Assembly: GCA_016235245.1 (NCBI GenBank) | Contig: JACRLO010000009.1 | Span: forward strand, 1 to 64,000 | DNA length: 64,000 nt | Direction: 5' to 3' | Source of the DNA: Nitrospirota bacterium | GTDB lineage: Bacteria; Nitrospirota; Thermodesulfovibrionia; Thermodesulfovibrionales; UBA6898 | In this document: positions 22,502 through 40,548 of the stretch, piece after piece | How the letters are laid out: every line of letters begins with the position of its first letter | Position numbering within the stretch: position 1 is the first letter of the stretch | The notes under the pieces: generated by a model | What the model was told of the DNA's origin: nothing | Databases searched by the model: none | What the model saw: only the letters and a program-made list of their open reading frames with translations | Translations under genes and position numbers: made by a program

Positions 22502-23773
22502 TTATATGATTTCTTCGTCGCCTGCATCTACGTCTTCACTGCTGGCTTCCAGATCGAGCATCTTGATCTCCGGAAGGGATGAACCGATGATACCCTGCAT
22601 ATCTCCGTACATCCCTGAAGTGCTCATGATTACCTTTTCAATCTGACGCTCTCGTTTCGCCCACATTTTTGTTGTCGCCCGTTTTTCCTTATCAAGGTCC
22701 GCTTTTATGGTAACGAACGCCTCAACAATGGCCTCGACTTTATGTCTGAAGGACGGACCTGATAGATAGTTGTAAAGAAGTTCCATTTTTTCGTCCTTAT
22801 TTGTAATCGATAACGTCGCCTGATTGACCTGTATCAAGGTAGACCTAAGGAGTGCTGCTACATGGGTGGCGATGGCCGGGGTGGTTACCCATATTCCTTC
22901 GACTTCGCCAAAGGTATGCATACCTTTTGGGAGTGCCTCCGTAACGATGACAGCGATCTCCGCTCTCACTTCTCTCTGATCGTTTTTCAGCTTTTCGATC
23001 CATCCGTCGCTCCAAGCCTTTGTCCTCTTTGTCTCCCATATGATGGTTCCGCAATTCTGACCTGCGGAACTTATCACCCTTTGAAGGATGTCGGCGCCTC
23101 TCATGCCTTTTGACACCGGCTCGACACAATCGAATGGAAAGCAGGTTTTCAGCAGCACCTCAATGTCCAGTTCCAGCACCTCGCCCTGTGTCTGCATTGA
23201 ACCTTGTTCAGCCTTCCTCTTGAGATCATCTATTGTTTTTCGCATGTCATCAAGCTGTTTGTCTTTTTCAAGATCCTTCATCCTGTGATTCTCGGTAAAC
23301 TGCTCTACAGCCTTATCTCGAATCTTCTCTCGTTCCTCATCTATCTTCCTGGCCACCTCCAGCTCAAGACTTTTCTGACGATCATCGAGTTCTCTTGCCT
23401 TCTTCCTGAGTTCCAGTTCGTTATTCTGAGATTCTTTCAGTCTCTGGTCTTTTGATGCAATTTGCCCTTGAAGATCCTTGAGTTCCAACTTCATGGCAGA
23501 TTCAGCCTCTGCCTTCGCGGTTTGCCTCAGCTTTGTCTCTTCAATCTTCAGCTGCTCCGCCACCTGCTGAGCTACCGTGTTTCTTGCGACCTCGATTTCT
23601 CTGAGCTGTCCTGCAACCTGCTTCTCCCTTTTAGTGATGGCGAGTTCTCGCTCACGCGCTTCAATCTCAAACTCTTTCTGCAGCCCCTCCCTAATCTGGT
23701 GAGAGAGTGTTTCTGTCAGCGGTATTTCTTTGTTGCAATGGGGACATAGAATTGTCTGTTCCACTTTATTCAT
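22502..23773 (-). CDS. DUF2130 coiled-coil protein
   Basis: 423 residues. A CPHC zinc motif opens the protein, a long coiled coil follows (about 25-200), and the C-terminal part has the DUF2130 pattern (GTIIWETKRTKAWSDGWIEKLKND, then AEIAVIVTEALP). The E-x-K in WETK and the preceding GADILQRV fit a PD-(D/E)xK nuclease fold, as proposed for this family. Its partners and target are unknown. It is in an operon with the 76-residue gene upstream, 4 bp away. Confidence 0.75.
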   Translation of the reverse strand: MNKVEQTILCPHCNKEIPLTETLSHQIREGLQKEFEIEARERELAITKREKQVAGQLREIEVARNTVAQQVAEQLKIEETKLRQTAKAEAESAMKLELKDLQGQIASKDQRLKESQNNELELRKKARELDDRQKSLELEVARKIDEEREKIRDKAVEQFTENHRMKDLEKDKQLDDMRKTIDDLKRKAEQGSMQTQGEVLELDIEVLLKTCFPFDCVEPVSKGMRGADILQRVISSAGQNCGTIIWETKRTKAWSDGWIEKLKNDQREVRAEIAVIVTEALPKGMHTFGEVEGIWVTTPAIATHVAALLRSTLIQVNQATLSITNKDEKMELLYNYLSGPSFRHKVEAIVEAFVTIKADLDKEKRATTKMWAKRERQIEKVIMSTSGMYGDMQGIIGSSLPEIKMLDLEASSEDVDAGDEEII

Positions 23774-24254: not shown

Positions 24255-24270
24255 TGCAAAGGTAATGCCA
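24255..24270 (-). promoter_or_regulatory. sigma-54 (-24/-12) promoter candidate
   Basis: Minus strand: TGGCATTACCTTTGCA has the GG and GC elements 12 bp apart, matching TGGCAY-N5-TTGCW. It points at the minus-strand gene starting at 24243 and lies next to the divergent sigma-54 activator gene. Confidence 0.5.
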
Positions 24271-24435
24271 GGATCGAAAAACAGCCAATGTTTGGCATTT
24301 AACGAAAATAACCTATTCATTTATAAGAGTTTTCGCTGGAACGTTTTGAGTCTGGGATTCTTGGCCATGTTCTTTAATATGATGTTTATGATAATAATTA
24401 TTGTAATTAACAAGATTATTTGTGTAATATTCAGC

Positions 24436-25953
24436 ATGATTAATAAAGTCTTATTTGCTTGGATAGGCAAAACCGACCTGCGAGCCTCGCTGGGGGAACT
24501 GGGGGATGGGCTTGGACCAATCGGCCAGGCTGTCAGCAAGCGCTCTTTTTCCTGTATTGCCCTTATCTCAAATTACAAAAAGGAAGAAGAAAAGCATTTT
24601 ATAGATTGGCTTAAAACGAAGACATCTGCTCTTGTCCTTAGACATCATGTGGAATTATCCAGCCCTACAGACTTTAAAGAGATTTACGAGTCTGCTACAA
24701 ATACTATAAATGAAGTAAAAATGAGACTCGGGTCAAAAGAAATGCAGCCAACTTATCACCTAAGCCCCGGCACACCAGCTATGGCTGCGGTATGGATACT
24801 TCTCTCAAAGACATCACACCCCGCTGAACTTATAGAATCTTCACAGGAGAAGGGAGTAAAGACCGTATCCCTACCTTTCGAGATATCGGCTGATTATGTT
24901 CCCGATATTCTGAAGCCCGCTGACGATGAAATTCTTAAGCTTACCCAAGGCCTACCTCCTGAGTCTCCTGAGTTTGGGGCAATCATTCATCGCTGCAAAG
25001 AGATGAAGCGAGTTATCGCTCAAGCACGAAGGCTTGCTGTCCATGATGTCCCTGTTCTTATACAGGGAGAATCCGGCACTGGCAAGGAGCTTTTCGCTCG
25101 TGCTATTCATACGACAAGTCCAAGGATGGCTAATCCCTTTGTTGCAGTCAACTGTGGATCAATACCGCCTGAGCTCGTAGAGTCTGAGTTTTTTGGTCAC
25201 ACAAAAGGTGGCTTTACGGGGGCGATTTCCGATAGGAAGGGCTATTTTTCTGCCGCTGATGGAGGCACCCTTTTCCTTGATGAAATCGGAGAGTTGCCCC
25301 TTCCTGCACAGGTAAAGCTTTTGAGAGCAATACAAGAAGGCATGATCACTAAGGTCGGCTCCAGTAAGACGGAGTCTATTAATGTAAGAATCATCGCAGC
25401 GACCAACCGAAACCTTATAGAAGAGGTTGCATCAGGGAGATTCAGGGAAGACTTATTTCACCGTATTGCCGTTGGCGTACTGTATCTACCGCCACTTAGA
25501 GACCGTCACGGAGATCTTAACCCAGCTATCGAGCACATCCTTGAAAGTATTAACCGAAAGTTCGAGGATAGGCCAGGCTGGAAACATAAGAATATTTCTG
25601 CAGGCGCAAGAAATCTTATGCACCAACACCCTTGGCCAGGCAATGTCAGGGAACTCTATAATACTCTTTCGCGGGCTGCTATCCTGATCGCAGGTGAGAC
25701 AATAGAAACTGACGATATCCGTGAGGCATTATTCCCTGTGAGCAGTTCTCAAAATAACCAAGAAAAAATGCTAAATCGCAATCTGGGCAACGGTTTCAGC
25801 CTGCCTGACATGCTTTCAGATGTGGCGCGTCACTATTTGAAAAGAGCGGTTGTGGAAAGCAAAGGAAATAAGACAAAGATTGCCTCGCTGTTAGGCTTAT
25901 CAAACTACCAGACGGCAAGTAACTGGTTAAAGAAATATGGGATCGAGGAGTGA
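24436..25953 (+). CDS. CARF-like sensor, sigma-54 activator
   Basis: 505 residues. A bacterial enhancer-binding protein: Walker A GESGTGKE (211-218), GGFTGA (258-263, the sigma-54 contact loop, normally GAFTGA), Walker [12 protein letters not shown] (278-288) and a Fis-type helix-turn-helix ([20 protein letters not shown]). In place of a receiver the N-terminus is a Rossmann-like sensor with [10 protein letters not shown] (107-116), matching the ligand loop of CARF domains that bind cyclic oligonucleotides, as in RtcR. I use the ATG at 24436; the AT-rich upstream frame would encode an unlikely run of hydrophobic residues. The promoter right after its stop makes the hsd operon its probable target. 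Confidence 0.75.
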
Positions 25954-25969
25954 TGGCACGACGATTGCT
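25954..25969 (+). promoter_or_regulatory. sigma-54 promoter of the hsd operon
   Basis: TGGCACGACGATTGCT matches the consensus TGGCACG-N4-TTGCW with GG (25955-25956) and GC (25967-25968) 12 bp apart. It starts directly after the stop codon of the activator gene and lies 32 bp before hsdR. Transcription would begin near 25980. Confidence 0.85.
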
Positions 25970-26001: not shown

Positions 26002-28374
26002 ATGAATGAAAAAGAGACGTGCAAGCAGATAATTGAACCGGCACTGCAGAATGCTGGCTGGGATTTAGAAGCACAGCTACGCATAGGTCCGGGTCGCGTC
26101 AATCTCACTGGCGAAACACTTACTTCAATGTACGATGAGACGCAGGCAATTATTGCAGACTATCTCCTTCGATATCGTGGTATCCCTCTCGCCATTTTGG
26201 AAGCTAAGGCAAAGTCTGAAGACGCGGCCGACGGCATGCAACAGGCATCACGCTACGCGCACCGCTTATTAATTCGTTTCTCGCTTGCCTCTAACGGACA
26301 TCATTGGATTCTTACTGATAACGATACCGGAAAATACGAAACGCTAACAACCCCACCTACACCTGAAGACATAGTTGGGCGAATGGGTGTCAACATAGAC
26401 TGGGACCGGTGGGCAAGTTCCTTTATTGCTGGCCTTCATGTTGACCAGGTTTCTCGCAAAAAGGTCCGCCCATATCAGGAAATGGCGATTGCAAAAACAC
26501 TATGGCAATTTGCGCAGGGCAATCCACGTGCCCTTTTGTTGATGGCAACAGGCACAGGCAAGACATTCACTGTATTTCAGCTCATTTGGAAGATGCTGAA
26601 CAGCAATGCTCTTAAACGTCAGCATATCCTATTCCTTACCGACCGGAACAGTCTTAAAGATCAGGCCTATCGGGCATTTGCTGCTTTTTCGGCGGACGAA
26701 CGGGTCACTATTGATAAGGAAACTATATCTCAGGGCCAGCATCTTGTCGGCAAGATTTTCTTCGCCAACTATCAGAATCTCGATGAGGAGTTAAATGGCA
26801 AAAAGCTCTATGAATACTACGATCAGGATTTCTTCGATCTTGTCGTAATTGATGAGTGCCATCGGTCGGGTTTCGGTGACTGGTTTGGCGTGCTGGAGCA
26901 TTTCAGCGGTGCACTTCAGCTCGGACTGACTGCTACGCCGCGAGAACTGGAAGAAGCCAGCCGGCCGCTGACCGCTGAAGAAAAACGGCGAGACACTTAT
27001 GATTACTTTGGTGAGCCTATTTATATCTACAGCCTGAAACAGGCTATTGAGGATGGCTATCTTGTTCCTTATCTACTGGAAGAACGTATTACTAATGTTG
27101 ATGAGGCTGGCTACACCGGTCCTGACGGCAAGCACTATACAACTGCAAACTTTGAACGCGATATTCGTATGCCTGACCGGACAAAGGCGATCGCTGAAGA
27201 TCTTTGGGAAATTTCTGGAAAGTATGGGCTGCGCGATGATAAAACAATTATATTCTGTGTCGACGACACTCACGCAGCATTCATGGCCCAGGAGTTACGC
27301 CGCCTCTCCGGCGATAATGACTACGCAGCTCGTATCACTCGGGCTGAACGAAATAGCCATCAGCTTGAGCGCAATTTTGCGATTGTTGGTCCCAGTAATC
27401 CGCGTGTTGCAGTTACTGTGGATCTTTTGACTACCGGTTATGATGCCCCTGATGTAAAAAACATTGTCTTTGCGAGACCGCTGCGCAGTTCAATTCTCTA
27501 CAAACAGATGAAGGGACGCGGCACCCGCCTTTGCGAGGACATTAATAAGCGCTACTTCACTATTTTTGACTATTCGGGTGCAAGTCAACTTGAAGATGCC
27601 GAGTTCGATGGACATCCTGCCAACCAACAAAAGGGAACGCTGCCAAAGTCCAAACCCAAAAAGAAGAGTGAAGACTCAGCTCCTAAGCCGGTGGGGGAAG
27701 GTGTCTCAGTCATCATTTCGGCTACAAATCGATACATCTGCCTTGCAGATGGCCGTAAGATTCCCTTTGAGGAATACACTGAGCAGTCCCGAGAGTTCAT
27801 CTTGGATGTGTCTACTAAAAGCATCGATGAATTGTTATCCATCTGGATTGACAAGAAAAGTCGTCAGGAGCTTCGTGAAGAGTTACGCGATCATGATATA
27901 TATCCATCGGCTTTTCGTCATTACCTGGAATTGCCGCAGACTGATGATGTCGATATTCTTGCCAAGATTGGATTTGACCTGGTCCGTGTTCCTACCCGCC
28001 ATCAGAGGGTAGACAGGTTCTGGCAGAAGGATAAAGCATGGCTGCTTTCCCACTTTGGGATGGCACTTCCTAAAACAGCAGAGATCATTCCTTTTCCAAA
28101 ACCGAATCCGGTTTCTCTTCCTTTGGCTGCCGAAGCTCCGGCAATCTACAAAACAGATGGTCAGCATAAACTTGAATTCTGGGAAACCGCGTTGGACCAT
28201 TATGCACTTTTCGGAATAGACGACCTGGAGCAAGCGCGCACCTACGGCGCACCCCAGTTTGTCGATCAGTTCGGCAGCTTTCAGTCACTGACCCGCCATT
28301 ACGGCGGTGCTCAATTATTAAAAACAGACTTAGAGGCAGTAAAAAAACATCTCTATGTCCCAATGAAGGCATAA
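26002..28374 (+). CDS. hsdR: type I restriction enzyme R subunit
   Basis: 790 residues. An N-terminal nuclease of the PD-(D/E)xK type (Asp53 in ADYLL, EAK 67-69), then a superfamily-2 translocase with Walker A MATGTGKT (181-188), DECH (284-287), TATPR and the LTTGYDAP / GRGTRLC motifs. The C-terminal part resembles EcoEI-type R subunits. It cuts DNA after long-range translocation when bound to an M/S complex. Its promoter is of the sigma-54 type, which is unusual for restriction genes. hsdM follows after 19 bp. Confidence 0.93.
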   Translation: MNEKETCKQIIEPALQNAGWDLEAQLRIGPGRVNLTGETLTSMYDETQAIIADYLLRYRGIPLAILEAKAKSEDAADGMQQASRYAHRLLIRFSLASNGHHWILTDNDTGKYETLTTPPTPEDIVGRMGVNIDWDRWASSFIAGLHVDQVSRKKVRPYQEMAIAKTLWQFAQGNPRALLLMATGTGKTFTVFQLIWKMLNSNALKRQHILFLTDRNSLKDQAYRAFAAFSADERVTIDKETISQGQHLVGKIFFANYQNLDEELNGKKLYEYYDQDFFDLVVIDECHRSGFGDWFGVLEHFSGALQLGLTATPRELEEASRPLTAEEKRRDTYDYFGEPIYIYSLKQAIEDGYLVPYLLEERITNVDEAGYTGPDGKHYTTANFERDIRMPDRTKAIAEDLWEISGKYGLRDDKTIIFCVDDTHAAFMAQELRRLSGDNDYAARITRAERNSHQLERNFAIVGPSNPRVAVTVDLLTTGYDAPDVKNIVFARPLRSSILYKQMKGRGTRLCEDINKRYFTIFDYSGASQLEDAEFDGHPANQQKGTLPKSKPKKKSEDSAPKPVGEGVSVIISATNRYICLADGRKIPFEEYTEQSREFILDVSTKSIDELLSIWIDKKSRQELREELRDHDIYPSAFRHYLELPQTDDVDILAKIGFDLVRVPTRHQRVDRFWQKDKAWLLSHFGMALPKTAEIIPFPKPNPVSLPLAAEAPAIYKTDGQHKLEFWETALDHYALFGIDDLEQARTYGAPQFVDQFGSFQSLTRHYGGAQLLKTDLEAVKKHLYVPMKA

Positions 28375-28393
28375 TTAAGGAAGGCTCAAAATA

Positions 28394-29872
28394 ATGACCA
28401 AGAAGATAGATCATCGTCGTCAGGAAGTCCAGCAAATCGTCAAGAATGCCTGCGACCAGCTTAATGCAGAAGGCGTGGATGCACGCAATTATGTGGAGCA
28501 GCTGGCCTGGCTGTTTTTCCTAAAGGCATTTGATGAGGCTGAAGCGCGTCGCGAGGAAGAAGCATCCTTTGATGATAAGCCGTATGAACGTCGGCTATCA
28601 GGTAATTACGCTTGGTCGGCTTGGGCTAGGGATACAGACCATCCTGACGAGATGTTGGAATTTGTTACGGGCAAGCTCTGGACGAAGCTCACCAGTCCTG
28701 ATCCGAAGAAAGGTTTGGGCGATGATCTGTTAGCCCAGCGGTTCCGCCGCATTTTCGATAATGTGCGTAACTATTGCCGGCGAGGCGTATCTTTTGCAAA
28801 GGTCGTCCAACAGGTCGATAAGCTGCACTTTGCCGATGACACAGATGTGCATGTGCTGTCAGAGATTTATGAGGACCTCCTGAAGCGCGTTGCAGCTGAC
28901 TCGGCTGGGTATGCAGGTGAGTTCTATACCCAGCGGCATGTTATTCGTGCAATGGTGGCGGTTGTTCGACCGAAGTCAGGTGACCGGGTATACGACCCCT
29001 GTTTTGGTACAGCCGGATTTCTTGGAGAGGCTGCAGACTTCATCCGCAAGAATGGCTCGCTTAGCGGTAAGGACCTTGATAATCTCCAGAAGAACACTTT
29101 TTACGGTATGGAGATTAAGCCACTCACTTACCTGCTCGGTACCATGAACATGATACTCCACGGGATCGAGGGTGCTAATCTGGAGCTGACCAATACATTG
29201 GAAATCCACAGCCAGAATGTCGGAGAGAAGGATAAATATAGTGTAATTCTTGCAAATCCTCCCTACGGTGGCAAAATGGATCAGACTATGCAGACTAATT
29301 TCCGTGTTAAGTCCGCTGCGACGGAATGCCTCTTTGTCCAACACATCATGGCCAACCTGGCCAAAGGCGGCCGCGCTGGCGTGGTCATTCCGGAAGGGGT
29401 GCTATTCCGTGGTGGGCCGGATCAGAAAGTCCGCAAGGAATTGATCGAGCAATTCAATGTCCATGCTATCCTCTCGCTTCCTGCAGGATGTTTCTTGCCA
29501 TATACAGGCGTAAAAACCAATGTCATTTTCTTCGACCGGCCTAAGGACGGATCGGGAACAAAGAACGTCTGGTTCTATGAACTTACCAACGATGGATTTG
29601 AGTTAAAGCAGACTCGTAAATCTATTGAAGGCAATCAGATCCCAGATTTCCTTTCCAAGTGGGAGAAACGAATTGAGGGAGAGAACTCCTGGACAGTTCC
29701 CGTGGAGCAGATCATTGAGCGTGGTTACGATCTTTCAGCTAAGAACCCGAATCGGAAGGACGATTACGAGCACCGGCCAGCACTGGAGTTGGTGCAATCT
29801 ATTAAAGCCAAGGAAAACCGAATCATGGAGCTTCTTGATGAATTGGAAGCAATCCTGGAGGCTAAGCAGTGA
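28394..29872 (+). CDS. hsdM: type I DNA methyltransferase M subunit
   Basis: 492 residues. An N-terminal helical domain (VEQLAWLFFLKAFDEAE) and an adenine-N6 methyltransferase: motif I DPCFGTAGFL (201-210) and catalytic NPPYGG (288-293). It protects host DNA at sites chosen by the S subunit. The stop overlaps the GTG start of hsdS by four bases. Confidence 0.93.
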   Translation: MTKKIDHRRQEVQQIVKNACDQLNAEGVDARNYVEQLAWLFFLKAFDEAEARREEEASFDDKPYERRLSGNYAWSAWARDTDHPDEMLEFVTGKLWTKLTSPDPKKGLGDDLLAQRFRRIFDNVRNYCRRGVSFAKVVQQVDKLHFADDTDVHVLSEIYEDLLKRVAADSAGYAGEFYTQRHVIRAMVAVVRPKSGDRVYDPCFGTAGFLGEAADFIRKNGSLSGKDLDNLQKNTFYGMEIKPLTYLLGTMNMILHGIEGANLELTNTLEIHSQNVGEKDKYSVILANPPYGGKMDQTMQTNFRVKSAATECLFVQHIMANLAKGGRAGVVIPEGVLFRGGPDQKVRKELIEQFNVHAILSLPAGCFLPYTGVKTNVIFFDRPKDGSGTKNVWFYELTNDGFELKQTRKSIEGNQIPDFLSKWEKRIEGENSWTVPVEQIIERGYDLSAKNPNRKDDYEHRPALELVQSIKAKENRIMELLDELEAILEAKQ

Positions 29873-31026
29873 CGGCATGGCCTTCAAAGCCGATAGGCAA
29901 TCTGTGCAACTTGATCAATGGGCGTGCCTTTAAGCCCTCAGATTGGGGTGTATCAGGATTGCCTATTGTTCGGATTCAAAACCTTAATGACCATTCAAAA
30001 CCTTTTAACCTTTATAAGGGCAAATTTGTCGAGAAGCATCTTATCGATAATGATGCAATCTTGCTTTCATGGTCCGGTACTCCCGGGACATCTTTCGGAT
30101 GCTTCCGATGGATGCGAGGCCCTGCGATATTAAATCAGCACATCTTTAAGGTGATCGTTAATGAGGAAATAATAGATGGTGATTTCTTCATTTATGCCGT
30201 TAATAGTAAATTGGAAGAGATGATTCGCCAATCTCATGGTGGTGTTGGTCTTCAACATATCACGAAAAGTAAATTGGAGGCAATCCGACTTCCCGTGCCA
30301 CAGCTCGTAGTGCAGCGCCGCATTGTTGCTCGCATTAAGGAGTGCCTGGAACGGATAGAGGAGATAGAGAGCTTACGTGCTACGACTACGCAGGAGCATG
30401 ACTTCTTATTGGAGTCTTTAATCGAGGCTGAGTTCCAGCAAGTCGATGGAGAGCCGGTATCTTTGAGCGAAGTCTGTTCTATCACGTCGATCCTTGTTGA
30501 TCCACGAAAGGGCGCATATCTCGATCTGCCGCACGTTGGGGGAGCGAACATAGAGTCAAAGACTGGATGGCTGCTCGACATCAAAACATCGCGTGGCGAA
30601 AAATTAAAGTCGAGCAAGTTCGTTTTCGATGAAACAATGGTGCTCTATAACAAGATACGACCTTACCTTATGAAGGTGGCGCGTCCTGACTTCAAGGGGC
30701 TATGCAGTGCAGATATGTACCCTTTGGCACCAAACCAGGATAGGCTTACGAGAGACTACTTATTTTACTTGCTGTTGTCTCGAAACTTTACACAGTATGC
30801 GATTGGTGGATCAAACCGAGCGGGTATGCCAAAGGTGAATCGTGAACATCTTTTTGCCTACAATTTTATATTACCTCCAGTGGAGCAACAGGTTCGGCTA
30901 ACTCAAGTAATGGATTCAGCAGCCTCCGCCATCGGAGAGCTTTGCAGTGATATGCGTGCCAGTGCCTTGGAGTCATCGGCTCTTCGACAATCCATTCTGC
31001 GTAAAGCTTTTGCAGGAGAATTGTAA
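29869..31026 (+). CDS. hsdS: type I specificity S subunit
   Basis: 385 residues starting with GTG. Two target-recognition halves can be seen: CNLINGRAFKPSDWGVSGLPIVRIQNL with LLSWSGTPG, and later SEVCSITSILVDPRKGAYLDLPHVGGANI. Each ends in a conserved helix region (LPVPQLVVQRRIVARIKE and LPPVEQQVRLTQVM). It defines the bipartite DNA target. The fusion gene begins five bases after its stop. Confidence 0.9.
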   Translation: MTAWPSKPIGNLCNLINGRAFKPSDWGVSGLPIVRIQNLNDHSKPFNLYKGKFVEKHLIDNDAILLSWSGTPGTSFGCFRWMRGPAILNQHIFKVIVNEEIIDGDFFIYAVNSKLEEMIRQSHGGVGLQHITKSKLEAIRLPVPQLVVQRRIVARIKECLERIEEIESLRATTTQEHDFLLESLIEAEFQQVDGEPVSLSEVCSITSILVDPRKGAYLDLPHVGGANIESKTGWLLDIKTSRGEKLKSSKFVFDETMVLYNKIRPYLMKVARPDFKGLCSADMYPLAPNQDRLTRDYLFYLLLSRNFTQYAIGGSNRAGMPKVNREHLFAYNFILPPVEQQVRLTQVMDSAASAIGELCSDMRASALESSALRQSILRKAFAGEL

Positions 31027-31031
31027 CCATT

Positions 31032-34000
31032 ATGGCTTATCCACCGTCAGTAAATGTGATCTCGCAATTAATATTTCGTATTCGAGAAGATAAGATACCT
31101 GCACATGAAATGGGCGTGGCTCTTGCCGCGCTTATCTATCTGCGCTGGGCCGACTTTCAGGAGTCTGAGCAGGAGGCTATTGCCGCCTTTGACGATGTTG
31201 AGTATGAGCCTGTCTTGCCCGTTTTATTGCACTGGCGGACCTGGCATATGTTTTCGCCAAAAGAGGTTCATGAACTTTTCAGAGGACGTCTCCCCCAGAT
31301 GTTAGAAGGCCTGAATAATTCCCGCTATAACCATTTGGCGACTCATCTGCACCGTATTGCCTCAGCTGTGAGACTTCTGGGTCAGCTATCCCCAAGTTCG
31401 CTTGATGTGATGATCCGTTGGCTTGCTGACCAGCCCTTTGAGACTCAGAGCAACCGCCGGGCCTTGCTGGATGTTTTTGACTCATTGTTGCAGATGCTAC
31501 TTGCAAATAATCAGTATGCGAATAATCGGTTCTTCGGTGAGTTTCATACGCCTGCCCATATCACGCGACTGCTTATTGAAATAGCCTCACCAAACTCTGG
31601 CGAGAGTGTGTATGACCCATGCTTTGGTACATCGGGATTTCTTACAGCGGCATATGACTACGTAACGGGCAAGAAGAGTAATGGATTTAACCGTAATGGC
31701 GATCCACTGCTTAGGATAGCGGGCGTTGAAATAAACTCTAACGCATATTTAATCGGTCTAACCCGTCTTGTACTCGCCGGCGTTGATGATCCTCAGCTTG
31801 AGATGGGAAATAGTCTTGAGCGTCTGCCTTTTAGTAATCCACAGCGCGATGGCTTTGATCTGGTAATACTTAATCCTCCTTGGGGAGGGCGGCAACATCC
31901 ATCGGGATTAGACCACTTCCCTGTGCGGACCTCAGACTCTACAGGTTTGTTCATCCAACATTCTCTTTCACAGTTGCGGCCCCAGGGGCGGGCTGTAATC
32001 ATTGTCCCTGAAGGTTTTCTTTTTAGGGGCGGTGCGGAACAACGACTGCGAAGAATGCTTTTGGAACAGCATGCTGTTGAAGCGGTGGTTTCCCTGCCGA
32101 CGGCAGCTTTTATGCCATACACATCGATAAAAGCGAGTATCCTTGTGCTCAAGCGAGGAGGTCAAACAAAACAGATTCGGATGTTGAATGCTGATTCCTA
32201 TTTCAAAAAAGGAAAAGGAAGGCAGCCTGCAACTATATCTGACGACAAGGTATTACAGCTTGCGGAGGATCTGCGTTCGCTTCAAGCCACTGAAAATAGC
32301 TGGGATGTGGATATCGCAGCGCTTGCTGAGGCTGAATGGGACTTTTCTCCCCGCCGTCGTGATAAAGCCGGATTGTCTGGCGTATTAGATGCGCTTCGAT
32401 CAAAAGTAGAAGTGCAGCTACTCAGGGAATGCTGTAATATCGTTGTCGGGCGAGCCGTGAAGTCAACAGATCTTATAGATAATATCGTTAACAAAGATTG
32501 GGTCAACATATTAATTCCATATGTCCGTATCAAAGATGTGCAGCGCGGGCAGGCAACAAAGGGTTCTTCCTGGTTATCTCCGGAAGCGGCTTCTTCTGTG
32601 GAGGCCAACTGGAAGCTCCGTGCTGGTGATGTTTTACTCTCTAAATCCGGCACTATCGGAAAGACGGGAGTAGTACGAAATGGCGCTGTCGGCGCTATCG
32701 CCGCCTCTGGCCTATTTGTCATCCGACCTGATCAGGACCGGATAGATCCCTATTTTCTCCTTGCATACTTTGAAAGCTCAGAGTGCCGCGCATGGTTTGC
32801 TTCGAAGGCGCGAGGAGCCACTATACAAAACCTTTCTAAAAACGTTCTCGATGAACTGCCAGTCCCTGTGCCGCCATTGCAGATGCAGCATCGCGTTGCT
32901 GAAGAATACCGGGACAATAAGGTCGACGCGCTGACGTTCCTGAGCAAGCTGATGACCGAAGGCGAAAGCGATCCTATTGTTGAGTGGCTTGATAAGTTCT
33001 ATACAAACTTCCCAGCTATTACGGATTCTTTTAATGATCCGCGCGATCTTACTCTCTTGGATCGCCTATCCGACGAAGTTCGTTCCATTCGCAATGCGAC
33101 CGCACATGACCGATTTGGTCGAGGGGATGCACACCTCGTGGCATGGCTACTCAAATTCAATGAGGCTCTGGCTGGCCTGCGTGGAGTGAAGAGTATTCCT
33201 CGCGGTTCCGGGTTACTCAGCGTATTGCAAGAGTCGACTCGTCAAATGGATAATGTGATGCAGATGGTTAGAGGGCAGCAGCGTGAAGAACACATGGCTC
33301 AAACCCTGACCAAACTTGTTCAAGAATGGTTAGTTATGGTGAGCTCAGCTTTGTTAAACGATGTAAAGCTAATCTTGAGCACGGAAACAGGATCGTTGAG
33401 AGCGGGGGAAATGCTGGATATTTCACTCCAGGTCGATAACCAGGGTCCTTTGCCGCTTCGAGAGGTGCTCATAACTACCTCGCCTGATTTCGGCCACGGT
33501 GAGTTTAATTTTCTTGCAGAAAATTCGAAGATTGCAGTTAATCTGTCTGGTGTCGGCCCAAAGGTGACCGGAACTTTCACAATTGTAGCAGATTGGTCTG
33601 CCCTAACTCTTGACGGGCAACGAGTGACGGGCTCACGTGAGCTTGCATTTGAGATCAGAGAAGCAATTACTTTATCTGCTGAACCTGTCATAGATATGGG
33701 CGGCAGTCCGTATGTTTGCGGAGACCCGGTCAAACCGGATCGCAATGACGTATTTTTCGGTCGTGAGGAATTATTGGATCAGATACGCCGGCAGATCATG
33801 CTGAGTGGAAATGTAGTTTTACTTGAAGGGAACCGAAGGGCTGGCAAATCTTCCATATTACGTCACCTTGAGGGGATAGAAGCCGTTCCTGGCTGGCTGG
33901 GTGTATACTGCAGCCTTCAAGGTACGGAGGGAAGTCGGGAAGGTGCGGGCGTACCTACGGTAGAGGTTTTTCGAGGTATCGCGATTAGCATTGCGACAAG

Positions 34001-34928
34001 CTTACAAAGGCTTGGAGCTGAGACACCGTTGCCGGATGGGTCTATTCTTCCCCCAGGGAAAAGACTCGGCATTACCGATGCTTGTATTGCTGGAATCAAG
34101 GAGACCTCCCCATTCTCGTATTTTCGTGAGTATATCGAGATTGTTCTTGAAACGCTCGCACAGAAAAAACTTGGGCTGCTGTTAATGCTGGATGAGTTCG
34201 ACAAGCTTCAGGAAGGTATTGATAGCGGTATCACATCCCCTCAAGTTCCTGAGAACATACGGTTTCTCGTTCAGACCTATCCGCATTTCTCTGCAATACT
34301 CACAGGCTCACGACGACTGAAACGTTTACGAGAAGAATATTGGTCTGCATTATTTGGACTTGGGACACGTTTTGGAGTCACCTCTCTGCCACCTGATTCG
34401 GCAGGGCATCTTGTGACGGAGCCTGTAAAGGGGCGGCTAACCTATTCAAAGGAAGCTGTTGATCGCGCTATAACGCTGACTGATAGGCAGCCATACCTTT
34501 TACAGTGCCTCTGTAATCGAATATTCGATATGGCCGCACAGCTCAAGACTCGTTCTATTACACTTGATTTGGTCGAACGCGCCGGAGATGCATTGGTTGA
34601 GGATAATGAGCACTTTGCAAGCTTATGGGATTATGCCGGCTCAGATCGCCGCCGCTTTATTCTTGCTCTCTGCCAGCGAGAGGGGAAGAGTCCTGACTCC
34701 TTCCGTTTGGGCGTTATTCAGGAACAGCTGGTGAATTGTGGAATTGAGGTGGAGGACGAGAGGATTATAGCTGATCTCGAGTTTCTCCGAGAATTAGAGT
34801 TGATCGACCTTGTAGGGGAATCTTACGTTCTCTCCATTTCGTTAATGGGAACGTGGATTGAAAGACAACAGGACTTTGCTGTCCTTATGAGTAAGGCAAG
34901 GTCTGAAACGGAGGATCTACATGAGTGA
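31032..34928 (+). CDS. methyltransferase-TRD-RNxxxH-ATPase fusion
   Basis: 1,298 residues, five parts in order. (1) HsdM-like adenine methyltransferase, DPCFGTSGFL (195-204) and NPPWGG (281-286). (2) One HsdS-like target-recognition domain (about 460-630, AGDVLLSKSGTIGKTG and VPVPPLQMQHRVAEEY). (3) A helical segment with R687-N688-ATA-H692, the HEPN-type RNxxxH motif. (4) A beta-sandwich (about 775-880). (5) An AAA/STAND-like ATPase (FFGRE, Walker A GNRRAGKS 933-940, Walker B LLMLDEF 1050-1056) with a C-terminal winged-helix-like tail. It overlaps the next gene by 8 bp. I know of no named system with this order. The methyltransferase part is sure; the HEPN part is inferred from one motif. Confidence 0.8.
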   Translation: MAYPPSVNVISQLIFRIREDKIPAHEMGVALAALIYLRWADFQESEQEAIAAFDDVEYEPVLPVLLHWRTWHMFSPKEVHELFRGRLPQMLEGLNNSRYNHLATHLHRIASAVRLLGQLSPSSLDVMIRWLADQPFETQSNRRALLDVFDSLLQMLLANNQYANNRFFGEFHTPAHITRLLIEIASPNSGESVYDPCFGTSGFLTAAYDYVTGKKSNGFNRNGDPLLRIAGVEINSNAYLIGLTRLVLAGVDDPQLEMGNSLERLPFSNPQRDGFDLVILNPPWGGRQHPSGLDHFPVRTSDSTGLFIQHSLSQLRPQGRAVIIVPEGFLFRGGAEQRLRRMLLEQHAVEAVVSLPTAAFMPYTSIKASILVLKRGGQTKQIRMLNADSYFKKGKGRQPATISDDKVLQLAEDLRSLQATENSWDVDIAALAEAEWDFSPRRRDKAGLSGVLDALRSKVEVQLLRECCNIVVGRAVKSTDLIDNIVNKDWVNILIPYVRIKDVQRGQATKGSSWLSPEAASSVEANWKLRAGDVLLSKSGTIGKTGVVRNGAVGAIAASGLFVIRPDQDRIDPYFLLAYFESSECRAWFASKARGATIQNLSKNVLDELPVPVPPLQMQHRVAEEYRDNKVDALTFLSKLMTEGESDPIVEWLDKFYTNFPAITDSFNDPRDLTLLDRLSDEVRSIRNATAHDRFGRGDAHLVAWLLKFNEALAGLRGVKSIPRGSGLLSVLQESTRQMDNVMQMVRGQQREEHMAQTLTKLVQEWLVMVSSALLNDVKLILSTETGSLRAGEMLDISLQVDNQGPLPLREVLITTSPDFGHGEFNFLAENSKIAVNLSGVGPKVTGTFTIVADWSALTLDGQRVTGSRELAFEIREAITLSAEPVIDMGGSPYVCGDPVKPDRNDVFFGREELLDQIRRQIMLSGNVVLLEGNRRAGKSSILRHLEGIEAVPGWLGVYCSLQGTEGSREGAGVPTVEVFRGIAISIATSLQRLGAETPLPDGSILPPGKRLGITDACIAGIKETSPFSYFREYIEIVLETLAQKKLGLLLMLDEFDKLQEGIDSGITSPQVPENIRFLVQTYPHFSAILTGSRRLKRLREEYWSALFGLGTRFGVTSLPPDSAGHLVTEPVKGRLTYSKEAVDRAITLTDRQPYLLQCLCNRIFDMAAQLKTRSITLDLVERAGDALVEDNEHFASLWDYAGSDRRRFILALCQREGKSPDSFRLGVIQEQLVNCGIEVEDERIIADLEFLRELELIDLVGESYVLSISLMGTWIERQQDFAVLMSKARSETEDLHE

Positions 34929-36516
34929 TTTAACATTTCCAATCCTGGGGACAGACATTCCGCCAATGCTTGGCCGGACCAAGATTATGCAGAGACTTTG
35001 GAGTGACCTGACGAAAGCCACACCCAGCAACCTGTCCATAATCGGTCCAAGGTTCGTTGGCAAAACCGTAATTATGAATGCCCTATCGCAACGAGCAGAA
35101 CGCGAAGACTCACCCTATGAGTTTGTGCTTTACTGGCATCTTGGCCATGATACTCCAAGATCTGATAGTGACTTTATTACTCAACTTTGCGATTTGCTTC
35201 AAAAAAAACTGGCGTCTATTGATAATAAATATGCTGAACATGAAGCATACCTTGGTAAGCACTCGTATAACCACCTTAAGGAGGTTACTGACTTACTTAC
35301 TTATGATGCTAAGCCTATTCTCATGATTTGGGATTGTTTAGACAAACCATTAGGTCAAGGGAATATATCCGGCGACCTCTGGAACCAGATGCGAGGAATA
35401 TTCTACGGAACGCAGCACAAAATAGTTACTGCAACGCGAAAGCCTTTAAGCGAGCTCATTCGAAGTGAGGACGCTCTTGATAGCCCATTCTGGAATATCT
35501 TTGATATGAATCTTGTACGTGTCGAAGCCTTCGATGATGCTGATTGTGAAACAATTATAAACACACTACATAGTCATTCTTTCCAGCCAGGCGCTAAAAC
35601 CGAGCTAATTAACTGGTCTTCTGGTTTTCCTCCTTTTTTTCTTGGCTTGCTGAATCATATAATTGCTGACAAGCCTAACGGATCTATTGACAATGCATGT
35701 GTGAATAGTGCGGCATCAAAAGCTGCAGAAACTTTATCTCCTATGATTAGTGCGCTTTGGGTGGATTGCCCAGCTTCTGCTAAAGATATCTATGTTCACT
35801 TAGTGGAGCGTGGCGACCTGCCATTAAAAGATATCGGGAAGGATGCCCGGGCTTGTTTAATTGAAAAAGGTTTTGCAAAGGAGTCTGGCAACAAGCTCGC
35901 ATTCTCAAGCCGAATGTTACAACAATATGTTGTGGGTTCTGGTTCCGACACAGGAAGCATGGCTCGACTGTTCGGAACTTGGGATGATTACAGGTCAAAT
36001 ATCCGAAGTCTGTTGGAACGTCGACTTGCCCAAATAGCACGTTTTGATGATCGCTTGTATGTTTTCGTTGCCCGCGCGATTCAAGATATCCCAGACCTCC
36101 CCGACGTTTGTCTCAATCATCTAACAAGCATTGAAGAACGTGCCCTTGATCTGATATGGCAACGTGAATTTGGGTCGACAAAAACGATACCCCAAAATCT
36201 TATCGATTTTTGGGCTTATGCTGCACCTTCAGACAAAACCGCGCAGCGCCTAAAAGAGCAGGCTGTTACATCCGTGCCCCCTGATCGCTGGCTCCAGTGC
36301 GGCATTTTGCAACTCTTAACAGGAAGTAAACAGGGAGTCGATTATCGAGCTCAACATGTAACGAAGGATACGTATGTCTTAATCAATGCGTTGCACAGCT
36401 TTCGTAATCGAAATCAACACTCCGAGGGGCAGGACATGCATGTCGGCGTCGCCGTAGCTGCGATCACGACCTGCTTGGAGCTCTTGTCGTGCTTGGAGAG
36501 GGAGTTGGCACCATGA
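34921..36516 (+). CDS. ATPase with C-terminal RNxxxH motif
   Basis: 531 residues. P-loop ATPase domain with GPRFVGKT (42-49), Walker B-like LMIWDCLD (134-141) and a sensor-like ATRKPLSELI, a middle helical region, and a C-terminal helical domain with SFRNRNQHSEG (R495, N496, H500). R-N-x3-H is the catalytic signature of many HEPN ribonucleases, and the layout ATPase plus C-terminal nuclease recalls PrrC and RloC, tRNA-cutting guards of type I restriction systems, though the sequence is not close to them. The ATGAGTGA overlap with the fusion gene couples their translation. Confidence 0.6.
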   Translation: MSDLTFPILGTDIPPMLGRTKIMQRLWSDLTKATPSNLSIIGPRFVGKTVIMNALSQRAEREDSPYEFVLYWHLGHDTPRSDSDFITQLCDLLQKKLASIDNKYAEHEAYLGKHSYNHLKEVTDLLTYDAKPILMIWDCLDKPLGQGNISGDLWNQMRGIFYGTQHKIVTATRKPLSELIRSEDALDSPFWNIFDMNLVRVEAFDDADCETIINTLHSHSFQPGAKTELINWSSGFPPFFLGLLNHIIADKPNGSIDNACVNSAASKAAETLSPMISALWVDCPASAKDIYVHLVERGDLPLKDIGKDARACLIEKGFAKESGNKLAFSSRMLQQYVVGSGSDTGSMARLFGTWDDYRSNIRSLLERRLAQIARFDDRLYVFVARAIQDIPDLPDVCLNHLTSIEERALDLIWQREFGSTKTIPQNLIDFWAYAAPSDKTAQRLKEQAVTSVPPDRWLQCGILQLLTGSKQGVDYRAQHVTKDTYVLINALHSFRNRNQHSEGQDMHVGVAVAAITTCLELLSCLERELAP

Positions 36517-36601: not shown

Positions 36602-38359
36602 ATGTACGACAAAATTAAAGAAGAAATAAAACAGGATTATTACAAGCAAAACTTCCCGAACGAGGGGCAGAGATTTGTCGCTTGGTATTTAATGAATATC
36701 CATCTGAGGGATAAGAATGAGACCAAAGATTGTATTACTGATGGACCAGACGATAAACAGATAGACGCAATCGTTATAGATGACGATAAGGCCACAGTAT
36801 TTGTGATTCAGGGTAAGTTTATAGGGTCAGACAAAGTCGATGCTGCTCCGTTACGAGAGGTGCTTTCTTCCTGGATACAGCTTAAAGATCTCGTGAGACT
36901 TCAGGAAGTGGGGAATATTAAGCTTAAAAGAAAGCTGGCTGAAGTAGCGACTGCTCTTGAGGATGATTACGATGTCTCATTTGAGCTTATAACTACTTCT
37001 TCACTTACCGATGCTGCTAAAACAGATTTAGCGACTTTTCAGGAGCAACTTGCAAATGCAGAAGACCTTGCGGCGACTATCCATCTTGTGGACCAGGATG
37101 AACTAAGGCGTCGTTATGATATGGCACTTGAAAAGGACAACCCCAGTATTAGGCATACGATAAAACTCGAACCGAATAAATACCTGAAAATGGACGTTGG
37201 AGGAACACAGGCAGTTCTGGCTGCTATTCAATTGAAAGACTGCCTAAGTTTTCCGGGAGTTAAAGATGGAACATTGTTCCAAAAGAATGTGCGTCAGTCT
37301 CTTGGTCTTAATAACGCTGTCAATAAGGGTATTAAGAACACGATATATGGAGACAAGCACCGTGATTTCTTCTTTTTTCATAATGGGATAACAGCTATCT
37401 GCAATAAAATGACGTTCAATGCTGAGAACAACCTTGAGCTCCAAGGGTTAAGCGTCGTGAATGGTTGCCAGTCCCTAAACACTATCCTGTCATGTAGTGA
37501 ACGCGTAAAGACTGTATTAGATACATACATAATGTTCAGATTTTATGAGATCCCGCAAAGAGACAGGGCTGATAGAATCAGTATTTCCACTAACTCCCAG
37601 AGCGCTGTTAAGCCTCGTGATTTGCGAAGCAATGACAAGAGAGTGCTCAATCTGAAAAGGGTCTTTGAACAGAAATATGCAGCTGGGTATTTCATAACAA
37701 AAAGGGGAGAAGCCCCGCCCGCGGAAAAAGACAGGAATTATGTTCTGGATCTTTCTGACTTTGGAAAATACCTTATATCATGGCATTCACAACGGCCCAA
37801 TATCGCCTATAGCGAAGCCAAAATATTTGATAAGTATTTTGAGCAGTTATTCAAACGGAATGAAGAGTATAAACCTGAAAAGGCACAGGCACTTAATTTT
37901 TGGATGACTGAGATTATGAAAGGATGGGTCCCCGCCAATCCATTGGGATTGAATGAATCGTTGTTGGCCATGAAGGCGTATGCGCCGTTCCATCAGCTCT
38001 ATGCGACCTCTATATGTTTTTCAAAATCGAATAACCAGATTGATCGAGTGCCTAATCCATTTGCATGCTGGGAGCGAGTACAAAGCAAGGGCCTGGTTGA
38101 GCAAATAGTGCAAATTGCGGGAACATGTCTCAATACTGCACTTGAAGCTGCGGCTAATGAGCCCTTGCCTCAAAATCGAGTCTTTAGCCCTCAAAACTGG
38201 ATAAAAACTAAAACTTGCCTATCGGGAATAAATGCTGCCGTCGGCCAGTATTTCGCAATGCTCCCCTCAATGCCCGGAGGAAAAGAGCTGAGCAAAAATC
38301 TCAGAGAATCGCTTGCCCTACCGGTGGAAGATTTTGAATACAGATGGGCAGCCGATTGA
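36602..38359 (+). CDS. AIPR-family abortive-infection protein
   Basis: 585 residues. The central part has the AIPR signature FFFHNGITAICNKM and LSVVNGCQSLNTI. The N-terminus, DDKQIDAIVIDDDKATVFVIQGKF (about 51-73), looks like a Mrr/PD-(D/E)xK nuclease core with Asp55 and Gln70-x-Lys72. Family members are linked to phage resistance; the mechanism is not well settled. GGAGGGG precedes the ATG. It follows the ATPase gene by 85 bp, so it may be part of the same operon or have its own promoter. Confidence 0.8.
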   Translation: MYDKIKEEIKQDYYKQNFPNEGQRFVAWYLMNIHLRDKNETKDCITDGPDDKQIDAIVIDDDKATVFVIQGKFIGSDKVDAAPLREVLSSWIQLKDLVRLQEVGNIKLKRKLAEVATALEDDYDVSFELITTSSLTDAAKTDLATFQEQLANAEDLAATIHLVDQDELRRRYDMALEKDNPSIRHTIKLEPNKYLKMDVGGTQAVLAAIQLKDCLSFPGVKDGTLFQKNVRQSLGLNNAVNKGIKNTIYGDKHRDFFFFHNGITAICNKMTFNAENNLELQGLSVVNGCQSLNTILSCSERVKTVLDTYIMFRFYEIPQRDRADRISISTNSQSAVKPRDLRSNDKRVLNLKRVFEQKYAAGYFITKRGEAPPAEKDRNYVLDLSDFGKYLISWHSQRPNIAYSEAKIFDKYFEQLFKRNEEYKPEKAQALNFWMTEIMKGWVPANPLGLNESLLAMKAYAPFHQLYATSICFSKSNNQIDRVPNPFACWERVQSKGLVEQIVQIAGTCLNTALEAAANEPLPQNRVFSPQNWIKTKTCLSGINAAVGQYFAMLPSMPGGKELSKNLRESLALPVEDFEYRWAAD

Positions 38360-38433
38360 AATAGACTCCTTATTAAAATAGATCGCTTTGGATCTGATGT
38401 TGATGAGGCCATTAAAGAAAAGAGGTGATTAGA

Positions 38434-39405
38434 TTGCAGAAAATACTATTTTTGAACGTCGGTTGGATGAAATACTACACAGGGATCACAGACGATCAGA
38501 TTGTTGGCGGCGGGTCTTTTGTTCAGGAGCATGGATTTGGACACGAGATTTTTAATTATCAGTCTTACAGTGGTCACTTGTATGGCTATGTGCAACCAGT
38601 AGGAAAGACGATAAGAATAGAAAGACTTGGAGCATTAGAACAAGACGCATCTATCAATGACGTCCTTGTTGTTTGGGTTTCAAGATCGCCTGTAGGAGGG
38701 GTTTATATAATTGGATGGTATAAGAATGCAATAGTTTACAGAAATTGGCAACATGCTCCGAGAAATTCAAATAGGACACATAAAAATGAAGAGCTCGGTT
38801 TTTTTGTTGAAGCAGGAGAGGATGATTGCACGTTGTTGCCGTTAGACAAAAGGATATTTCAGATACCAAGAGGGGAAGGAGGAATGGGACAATCAAATGT
38901 TTGGTACGCAGATCAAAAAGAACATATTGGATTTAAACAAAGTGTAACGGATTATATTACTCAAAACAAGCTTCCCCAGGATTACAAAACAAAAAGGACT
39001 GCTCAGGGAAAACCTTGGCAGACTGATCCATTTAAAAGGCAAGAAGTGGAAAGAGCTGCTGTTAAACTAACAATAAATTATTATACACACTTGGGCTATT
39101 CTGTAGATTCTGTTGAAAAAGATAATGTTGGCTGGGACTTAGAAGCATCTCTCAATGAAAGAAAATTGAAACTCGAAGTTAAGGGATTGTCTTGCGAGGA
39201 GTTAATAATTGAGCTCACACCAAATGAATATGTAAATATGAAAAAACACAAGGACAGCTATAGAATATGTGTTGTTACAAAAGCACTTAGCAAACATGCT
39301 TCTCTGTCAGTTTTCTCATTTTCGCCTGAAAGCGGAAAATGGGAAGATGAACAGCAAAGACAATTAAAGCTCGTTGAAATTATTAGTGTCAGAATGAATG
39401 TTTAA
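38434..39405 (+). CDS. DUF3883-domain protein
   Basis: 323 residues with a TTG start behind GAGGTG; the annotated GTG nine bases earlier overlaps that site. The C-terminal part (VERAAVKLTINYYTHLGYSV, then VGWDLEASLNERKLKLEVKGL) is a DUF3883 domain with PD-(D/E)xK-like residues D and E-x-K. The N-terminal 150 residues (FLNVGWMKYYTG, GGGSFVQEHGFGHEIFNYQ) form a separate domain I cannot name; it might read modified or foreign nucleic acid. Probably a defence effector, as such proteins often sit beside restriction genes. Confidence 0.65.
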   Translation: MQKILFLNVGWMKYYTGITDDQIVGGGSFVQEHGFGHEIFNYQSYSGHLYGYVQPVGKTIRIERLGALEQDASINDVLVVWVSRSPVGGVYIIGWYKNAIVYRNWQHAPRNSNRTHKNEELGFFVEAGEDDCTLLPLDKRIFQIPRGEGGMGQSNVWYADQKEHIGFKQSVTDYITQNKLPQDYKTKRTAQGKPWQTDPFKRQEVERAAVKLTINYYTHLGYSVDSVEKDNVGWDLEASLNERKLKLEVKGLSCEELIIELTPNEYVNMKKHKDSYRICVVTKALSKHASLSVFSFSPESGKWEDEQQRQLKLVEIISVRMNV

Positions 39406-39444: not shown

Positions 39445-40548
39445 TTAGCAATTTCTTTCCTCTATCTCCCTGACTAAATCTGCAAGATTGCCATTTTGGA
39501 ATGAGTTGTCATTGCGCCAATTGCCTGAGCCACGCTTCTGAACAGTATATAATCCCGTAACTTGGTTATGAACCACCCGGTGCAGAATTCGACCATAACG
39601 CGTCGCACAGCCATCCTCAACTCGCCAGTCGTGAATATCAGAACGAATTGCCCCGATCCTGGCCAAGAACTCAGAACACGATTGATAACGTCTCTGCGGA
39701 TCTATACTGCACGCCTTCGATATTGTGCGCCTGAGCTGTTCGCATACCCAAGGCGGCAGGGAGTTGATGTCGACTATTTGACCACGGACGATACGATTTT
39801 TTATAACATTAGCCGCATATATTTGTTTGTCAATTGGATCTGGTAGCAGACGGTATTCTCGCAACTGACGAGCATTGAGCCACGCTGATTCCTCATACGG
39901 TAATGCACCACCAAGAAGCTGGAACATTACAACACCAACCTGGTAAAGATCGCTTGAAATCCCATACATCCTTGAACCGATGGACTCAGGTGGACGGTAT
40001 ATAAGTGAATGCCCCGAGCCTGGAATTGTGTGCTGACCGTCAGGCATTCGTTTCACAGAACCAAAATCACCGATGACAGCACGATCATCATCTGATAGTA
40101 AAATATTCTGAGCTTTCAAATCTCGGTGAAGAAGTCTTCCGGCGTGCAAATGACTTAATCCTGACAAAATGTCTCTGCTTAGATTGATTGCTCGAATGTT
40201 TGCGTGGATGCCACGACACATTTCATCGTCAAGATCGCCCCTGTGATAAAAGGGCGTCGCAAAGTATGCGAAATCACCGTCGACAATGGCTGCGTGCATC
40301 ACATTGATGACATTAGGAGAATTTAGTCCACTAAGGTATCTCGGCTCGGCATGGTATAAAGGATCGCCGGACCAGTCGTAGAACTTAACCGCTACGCGTT
40401 GCTCGTGTACAATGTTAGTGCCAAAGAATAGCCAGCCGCAACTCCCCTTGCGGCTTTGCTTATCGAACGAGATGCTAACAGAAAGTTCCCTCAATTTATC
40501 CCTTATGGGTTCGGGGATTGTCAGCGTATCGAGGTTAAGTGGTGGCAT
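39445..40548 (-). CDS. Hanks-type Ser/Thr protein kinase
   Basis: 367 residues. ATP-binding VAVK (Lys55), HRDLKAQN (141-148), DFG (161-163) and PPESI give a full, probably active kinase. The glycine loop KGSCGW is degenerate. The C-terminal 90 residues are a small extra domain (WRVEDGCATRYGRILHRVVHNQVTGLYTVQKRG). There is no transmembrane helix, so it acts in the cytoplasm. It starts three bases after the DUF3010-like gene, so the two act together. Kinases of this kind are known in phage abortive infection. Confidence 0.88.
   Translation of the reverse strand: MPPLNLDTLTIPEPIRDKLRELSVSISFDKQSRKGSCGWLFFGTNIVHEQRVAVKFYDWSGDPLYHAEPRYLSGLNSPNVINVMHAAIVDGDFAYFATPFYHRGDLDDEMCRGIHANIRAINLSRDILSGLSHLHAGRLLHRDLKAQNILLSDDDRAVIGDFGSVKRMPDGQHTIPGSGHSLIYRPPESIGSRMYGISSDLYQVGVVMFQLLGGALPYEESAWLNARQLREYRLLPDPIDKQIYAANVIKNRIVRGQIVDINSLPPWVCEQLRRTISKACSIDPQRRYQSCSEFLARIGAIRSDIHDWRVEDGCATRYGRILHRVVHNQVTGLYTVQKRGSGNWRNDNSFQNGNLADLVREIEERNC

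Follow-up and report, generated by a model that had tools for sequence, protein, structure and literature searches.

The gene examined here raises the question of what a single protein that joins a DNA methyltransferase, a target recognition domain (TRD) and an ATPase does directly behind a Type I restriction-modification (R-M) gene set. The gene, FUS, lies in the 64,000-nucleotide stretch of Nitrospirota DNA that was analysed as a whole (the window; Table 1). A first-pass annotation, made from the sequence alone, had read the domain order as methylase, one TRD, a helical segment with an RNxxxH motif, a beta-sandwich and a STAND/AAA-like ATPase, and Pfam, PADLOC and AlphaFold together showed this order to be correct. 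The N-terminal half matched N6_Mtase at residues 147-441 (Pfam, E 4e-47) and MTase_I at 31-442 (PADLOC), and a weak AAA_16/nSTAND1 match began at about residue 898 (Pfam). An AlphaFold model of residues 624-1298 (39 aligned sequences, pLDDT 85.7; rows from the plasmid collection were left out of the structure predictions) placed helices at 633-775, followed by the beta-sandwich at about 780-876 and an AAA+/lid/winged-helix unit at 892-1278. The set in front of FUS (26002-31026) is complete, as that annotation had also stated: HsdR has intact nuclease and helicase motifs, HsdM has an intact NPPY motif and HsdS has two TRDs, as in Type I R-M systems.

Table 1. Positions of the FUS operon, parts of its proteins and adjacent genes in the window
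Feature	Position	Strand	Basis
RtcR-like CARF-AAA-HTH sigma-54 activator	24265..25953	+	PADLOC RtcR_PspF2--CARF_AAA_HTH, E 3e-194
Sigma-54 promoter site TGGCACGACGATTGCT, right behind the rtcR stop	25954..25969	+	sole exact consensus match in 64 kb
HsdR, nuclease and helicase motifs intact	26002..28374	+	motif check, profile matches
HsdM, NPPY intact	28394..29872	+	motif check, Pfam
HsdS, two TRDs	29869..31026	+	Pfam, PADLOC
FUS, methyltransferase-TRD-helical-beta-sandwich-STAND ATPase, 1,298 aa	31032..34928	+	single ORF
FUS residues 1-441, HsdM-like N-terminal helices and N6 methyltransferase (DPCFGTSG, NPPWG)	31032..32354	+	PADLOC, Pfam
FUS residues 464-624, one HsdS-like TRD	32421..32903	+	Pfam Methylase_S, E 2.8e-9
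FUS residues 648-775, helical segment	32973..33356	+	AlphaFold model
RNATAH (R687-H692) in FUS	33090..33107	+	sequence
FUS residues 780-876, beta-sandwich (Ig-like), eight strands	33369..33659	+	AlphaFold model
FUS residues 892-1298, STAND/ORC-Cdc6-type ATPase with lid and winged helix (EGNRRAGKSSI, LMLDEFDK)	33705..34925	+	2qen Z 23.8; near-invariant motifs
ATP2, second STAND-type ATPase, 8 bp overlap with FUS	34921..36516	+	43/45 homologous loci; AlphaFold
RNRNQH (495-500) in all-helical C-terminal part of ATP2	36403..36420	+	sequence
AIPR-family protein (AbiU-like), possible variable cargo	36602..38359	+	Pfam AIPR, E 6e-36; PADLOC AbiU, E 2e-33
NOV_C (DUF3883-type) protein, possible variable cargo	38425..39405	+	Pfam NOV_C, E 1e-9

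With one genome scanned per species, 45 strong FUS relatives (L012-L056) were found in many phyla. About 40 of these are complete single-ORF proteins, 1,291-1,438 aa long except for L024 (1,834 aa), and only in Minicystis (L055) is FUS clearly split, at the ATPase. Two genes joined by a sequencing error are thereby ruled out, and the fusion is real, representing an old and stable protein family. A full-length relative (42% identical) occurs on Acinetobacter ursingii plasmids. A close copy of the Citrobacter locus was not found in Escherichia coli genomes. The family is rare: within the window's own class, the C-terminal part of FUS was present in 1 of 230 genomes, namely that of the window. 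Three far weaker matches (L057-L059) have only the ATPase region in common with FUS; in L058 (8690-11635) this distant ATPase relative lacks a methyltransferase and is followed by a TCAD9 protein, so that related ATPases occur with other partners. Phage origin of FUS was rejected, as the viral contig collection (viral_contigs) held no relative covering the C-terminal part and phage records gave partial methyltransferase/TRD matches only.

FUS and ATP2 make up a conserved operon core, which is joined by an RtcR-like activator, a sigma-54 site and usually hsdRMS. The first-pass annotation had been right about the complete hsdRMS set upstream and had lacked the activator, the promoter and ATP2. 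The recurrent gene order is rtcR-like, hsdR, hsdM, hsdS, FUS and ATP2, and the operon is found across Desulfobacterota, Gamma- and Betaproteobacteria, Planctomycetota, Acidobacteriota, Cyanobacteriota and Fimbriimonadaceae. ATP2 comes after FUS in 43 of the 45 loci and is missing behind it only in L040, at a contig end, and in L052. The full hsdR-M-S-FUS-ATP2 array occurs in 22 genome loci in addition to the window, with rtcR seen in about 16 of those 22, some of which reach a contig or locus end before the rtcR position. Two reduced forms were also found: rtcR-FUS-ATP2 without hsdRMS (L041-L044 and L047), and hsdR-FUS-ATP2 without hsdM and hsdS in Acinetobacter and Citrobacter (L025), where HsdR no longer has helicase motifs II, III and VI and is motor-dead. 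On one A. ursingii plasmid (L009, 12672-20455), which also has a resistance gene, the HsdR-FUS-ATP2 operon has dead helicase motifs and the methylase motif HPPV, and it lies near a WYL regulator in place of RtcR. In Planctomycete operons, rtcR and hsdR are separated by an additional 613-aa gene (L020, 1102-2943; L021, 1074-2915). Across five genome samples (398, 258, 392, 379 and 296 genomes), all seven carriers of the close HsdM subfamily have it inside FUS operons, which argues against FUS being appended to a self-standing R-M system and implies that the hsdRMS set and FUS form one system rather than chance neighbours.

The RtcR-like protein scores 347 bits against NCBIfam RtcR, under the cut-off of 650, and has the GGFTGA loop, Walker A/B motifs and HTH of a sigma-54 activator. 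The first part of its ORF (24265-24435) is a hydrophobic stretch outside the profile match, and the true start is probably the ATG at 24436. Of 18 junctions between rtcR and the next gene, 13 have such a sigma-54 site (shuffle p<0.05), usually only a few bases from where rtcR ends, against 0 of 20 regions upstream of rtcR; the site is also present in two of the RtcR-FUS-ATP2 loci (L041 and L042), and rpoN was found in the window's genome. A sigma-70 scan of the region gave sites no commoner than in shuffles and is silent either way on a basal promoter. Divergent from rtcR is a DUF2130 protein gene (22502-23773, minus strand), and a sigma-54-like site with two mismatches lies on the minus strand at 24255-24270. 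For the RtcR that belongs to the RNA repair operon, PMC4012209 and PMC11090510 describe a response to RNA ends that bear a cyclic phosphate. Judged from the sequence features above, the R-M system seems to come on only when a stress-RNA sensor triggers it.

Is the methyltransferase of FUS then an enzyme? It is not a recent duplicate of the local hsdM, since in a tree the FUS methyltransferases form a single old group (100/100 support) separate from all HsdM. One explanation gives FUS the role of a further, active modification enzyme, a single-chain M plus half S, which guards a second target with the ATPases as accessories. Its motif I (DPCxG, SAM-binding) is mostly kept across homologues, a TRD is present in all the full-length ones, and motif IV is [NDS]PP[FYW] in 16 of 42; both motifs are intact in the window copy (motif IV NPPW), which may therefore still methylate. 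However, a further six have N or D without the aromatic residue and 20 have no catalytic N, D or S, among them 7/7 loci that have lost hsdM/hsdS and keep rtcR or hsdR (the five rtcR-FUS-ATP2 loci, Acinetobacter and Citrobacter). The catalytic motif is thus not kept throughout the family as it is in Type I HsdM, and the HsdM of FUS operons is always NPPY. With a TRD that is not hypervariable (below) and a fold of STAND type rather than that of a translocase, we regard a second modification enzyme as distinctly improbable.

Sequence divergence was compared among 21 full-set loci. Median pairwise identity was 0.70 for HsdR and 0.72 for HsdM, 0.50 for the FUS ATPase and 0.41 for the FUS TRD, against 0.23 for each of the two HsdS TRDs, so the FUS TRD does not have the hypervariability of Type I target recognition domains. 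FUS TRD similarity tracked that of HsdM (rank correlation rho 0.86, pairs not being independent) and was unrelated to that of the HsdS TRDs (rho 0.12 and -0.06, about 0 after control, with the same non-independence of pairs). In the Planctomycete pair L020/L021, for example, the FUS TRDs are 95% identical and the HsdS TRDs 21% and 33%. A TRD that follows HsdM and not the hypervariable HsdS TRDs is no normal swappable specificity domain, and together with loss of motif IV where the SAM motif is kept, this indicates that FUS is no swappable methylase. A methyltransferase-TRD that binds or reads without catalysis fits these patterns best. The sensor proposed in the first-pass annotation survives to that extent, as repeated loss of the catalytic Asn beside a retained SAM motif suits a reading or sensing role; that it reads methylation by the HsdMS set is doubtful, given that the FUS and HsdS TRDs do not co-vary and that FUS-ATP2 also occurs without hsdM/hsdS.

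Another possibility is that FUS and ATP2 govern the induced Type I enzyme, restraining or dismantling HsdR complexes on self DNA not yet methylated (restriction alleviation), and do not sense phage. As the same sigma-54 site precedes both hsdM and hsdR, the host's own targets may lack modification when induction sets in, and HsdR and HsdM evolve slowly, together with FUS. Nevertheless, the RtcR-FUS-ATP2 loci have no hsdRMS to govern, and we think this role rather unlikely.

The modelled ATPase of FUS was matched best by an archaeal STAND-clade ATPase (2qen, Z 23.8, rmsd 3.0, 336 aligned; VIA/Foldseek), then by archaeal 2fna, the plant NLR RPP1 (Z 18.0) and ORC/Cdc6, with Avs3 at Z 14.6; the ATP2 model (pLDDT 90) matched 2qen at Z 18.9. 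Both models have an ORC/Cdc6-type P-loop ATPase followed by a lid and winged helix, as in STAND proteins, which bears out the earlier description of the FUS ATPase as switch-like, and both modelled folds resemble those of NLR receptors. In the GxP region, ATP2 has TGGxPVL (G235, P237) and FUS retains the Pro only.

STAND domains of this kind might switch on the RNxxxH segments of FUS and ATP2 as HEPN ribonucleases for abortive infection. RNATAH lies at the end of FUS helix 674-691, and the ATP2 motif closes the penultimate helix of that protein, both in segments that are all-helical in the models. The structural match lists were filled by the ATPase part, so a missing HEPN entry there is no evidence against such a fold. 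The motif occurs in 13 of 46 FUS proteins, spread over distant lineages, and is thus probably ancient, with many losses; in ATP2 it is RNR.[QE]H in 9 of 40 and of G[DN]FGQH type in most others, the Arg usually being Gly and His500 invariant (40/40). HEPN descent of both segments is possible. Against ribonuclease activity, the Arg is lost in most members, so that the Rx4-6H motif conserved in HEPN proteins is not conserved here; Pfam gave no significant HEPN match (best RiboL-PSP, E 0.12, in one member), nor did a PDB profile search. A motif in so few FUS proteins cannot be an obligate effector, catalysis by it across the family as a whole is unlikely, and the HEPN effector that the RNxxxH motif had first suggested is a weak proposal; abortive infection by such ribonucleases seems to us very improbable.

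Genes behind ATP2 were also considered as effectors. A fixed effector there was ruled out, because these genes differ between loci (SAVED-HNH, GmrSD, SIR2, OLD-like, SNF2, DUF4011-helicase-REase, RNase III and RACo). They are often close behind ATP2 (gap of 15 bp or less in L017, L020, L021 and L027), and such variable defence genes, AIPR and NOV_C in the window, could be cargo under the same promoter. Convergent with the operon is a Ser/Thr protein kinase gene (39445-40548, minus strand), like the MADS MAD6 and PD-T4-6 kinases and a further defence gene in the island. A different Type I operon, on a Vibrio fluvialis plasmid (L068, 1827-12034), has an AAA ATPase between hsdR and hsdM and is followed by Shedu and another ATP-binding protein.

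On balance, we lean towards an inducible switch linked to restriction and built from two NLR-like ATPases, in which FUS is the receptor half and a repurposed methyltransferase-TRD forms its receptor part. An infection or damage signal would induce the operon. The HsdM/half-HsdS part of FUS, catalytically dispensable, would then serve to bind or read, docking either on DNA or on the HsdM2S(R) complex. This docked state would make the STAND domains of FUS and ATP2 exchange nucleotide and oligomerise. Once switched, these would permit or release the action of an effector, namely HsdR in loci that have it and, in loci that do not, a variable downstream gene or the helical C-terminus of ATP2. This receptor-switch reading draws on the conserved operon, the HsdM subfamily found only in FUS operons, the sigma-54 site and the STAND folds, as well as on motif IV loss, a FUS TRD that follows HsdM, the single old FUS group and the motor-dead HsdR. 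Counting against it are the intact motif IV of the window FUS and the absence of C-terminal repeats.

Such repeats are usual in STAND receptors. FUS shares the ATPase-lid-winged-helix fold with those receptors (NLR, Avs, CED-4), but its sensor part would be the N-terminal methyltransferase-TRD. By motif, the window hsdRMS is a canonical Type I system (EcoAI/FtnUII-type), and the N-terminal half of FUS corresponds to HsdM plus one HsdS TRD; unlike in Type I R-M, an RtcR/sigma-54 promoter lies in front and FUS-ATP2 behind, and the FUS TRD lacks HsdS-like variation. MADS and BREX likewise combine an N6 methyltransferase with ATPases in one defence operon, yet scores here are far under the curated cut-offs (MAD2, 70 vs 720 bits; PglX, 21 vs 500). 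RtcR-like CARF activators near R-M genes, with probable sigma-54 activation, are treated in parts of Makarova et al. 2014 (PMC4012209); the regulator type and R-M association are alike, and the FUS-ATP2 pair and the promoter are not described in those parts. In the CoCoNuT RtcR superoperons an RtcR homologue heads operons that include HsdRMS (PMC11090510), whereas the window operon has a fixed FUS-ATP2 pair and a conserved core without McrBC/CoCoNuT genes. No description of either the fusion or the pair was found in the open-licence papers searched, and within that scope the first-pass view that no system of this architecture had been reported appears to hold.

Three immune logics that are usually met separately come together in the operon: sensing of RNA damage through CARF, restriction-modification and STAND switching of the NLR type. 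Tentatively, and with less confidence than an even chance would warrant, an NLR-like receptor, its ligand-binding part a repurposed and often catalytically dead methyltransferase plus TRD, may work with ATP2 and be made only when an RNA-damage sensor fires, turning a Type I R-M system from a standing barrier into an induced response. If hsdM does lie behind a sigma-54 promoter, host DNA may be unmodified until induction, which would break the standard rule of modification before restriction and open induced restriction, perhaps at the cost of the host itself, to testing. The dead methylase and dead HsdR motor of the reduced forms would clearly exemplify how components of restriction can become sensors.
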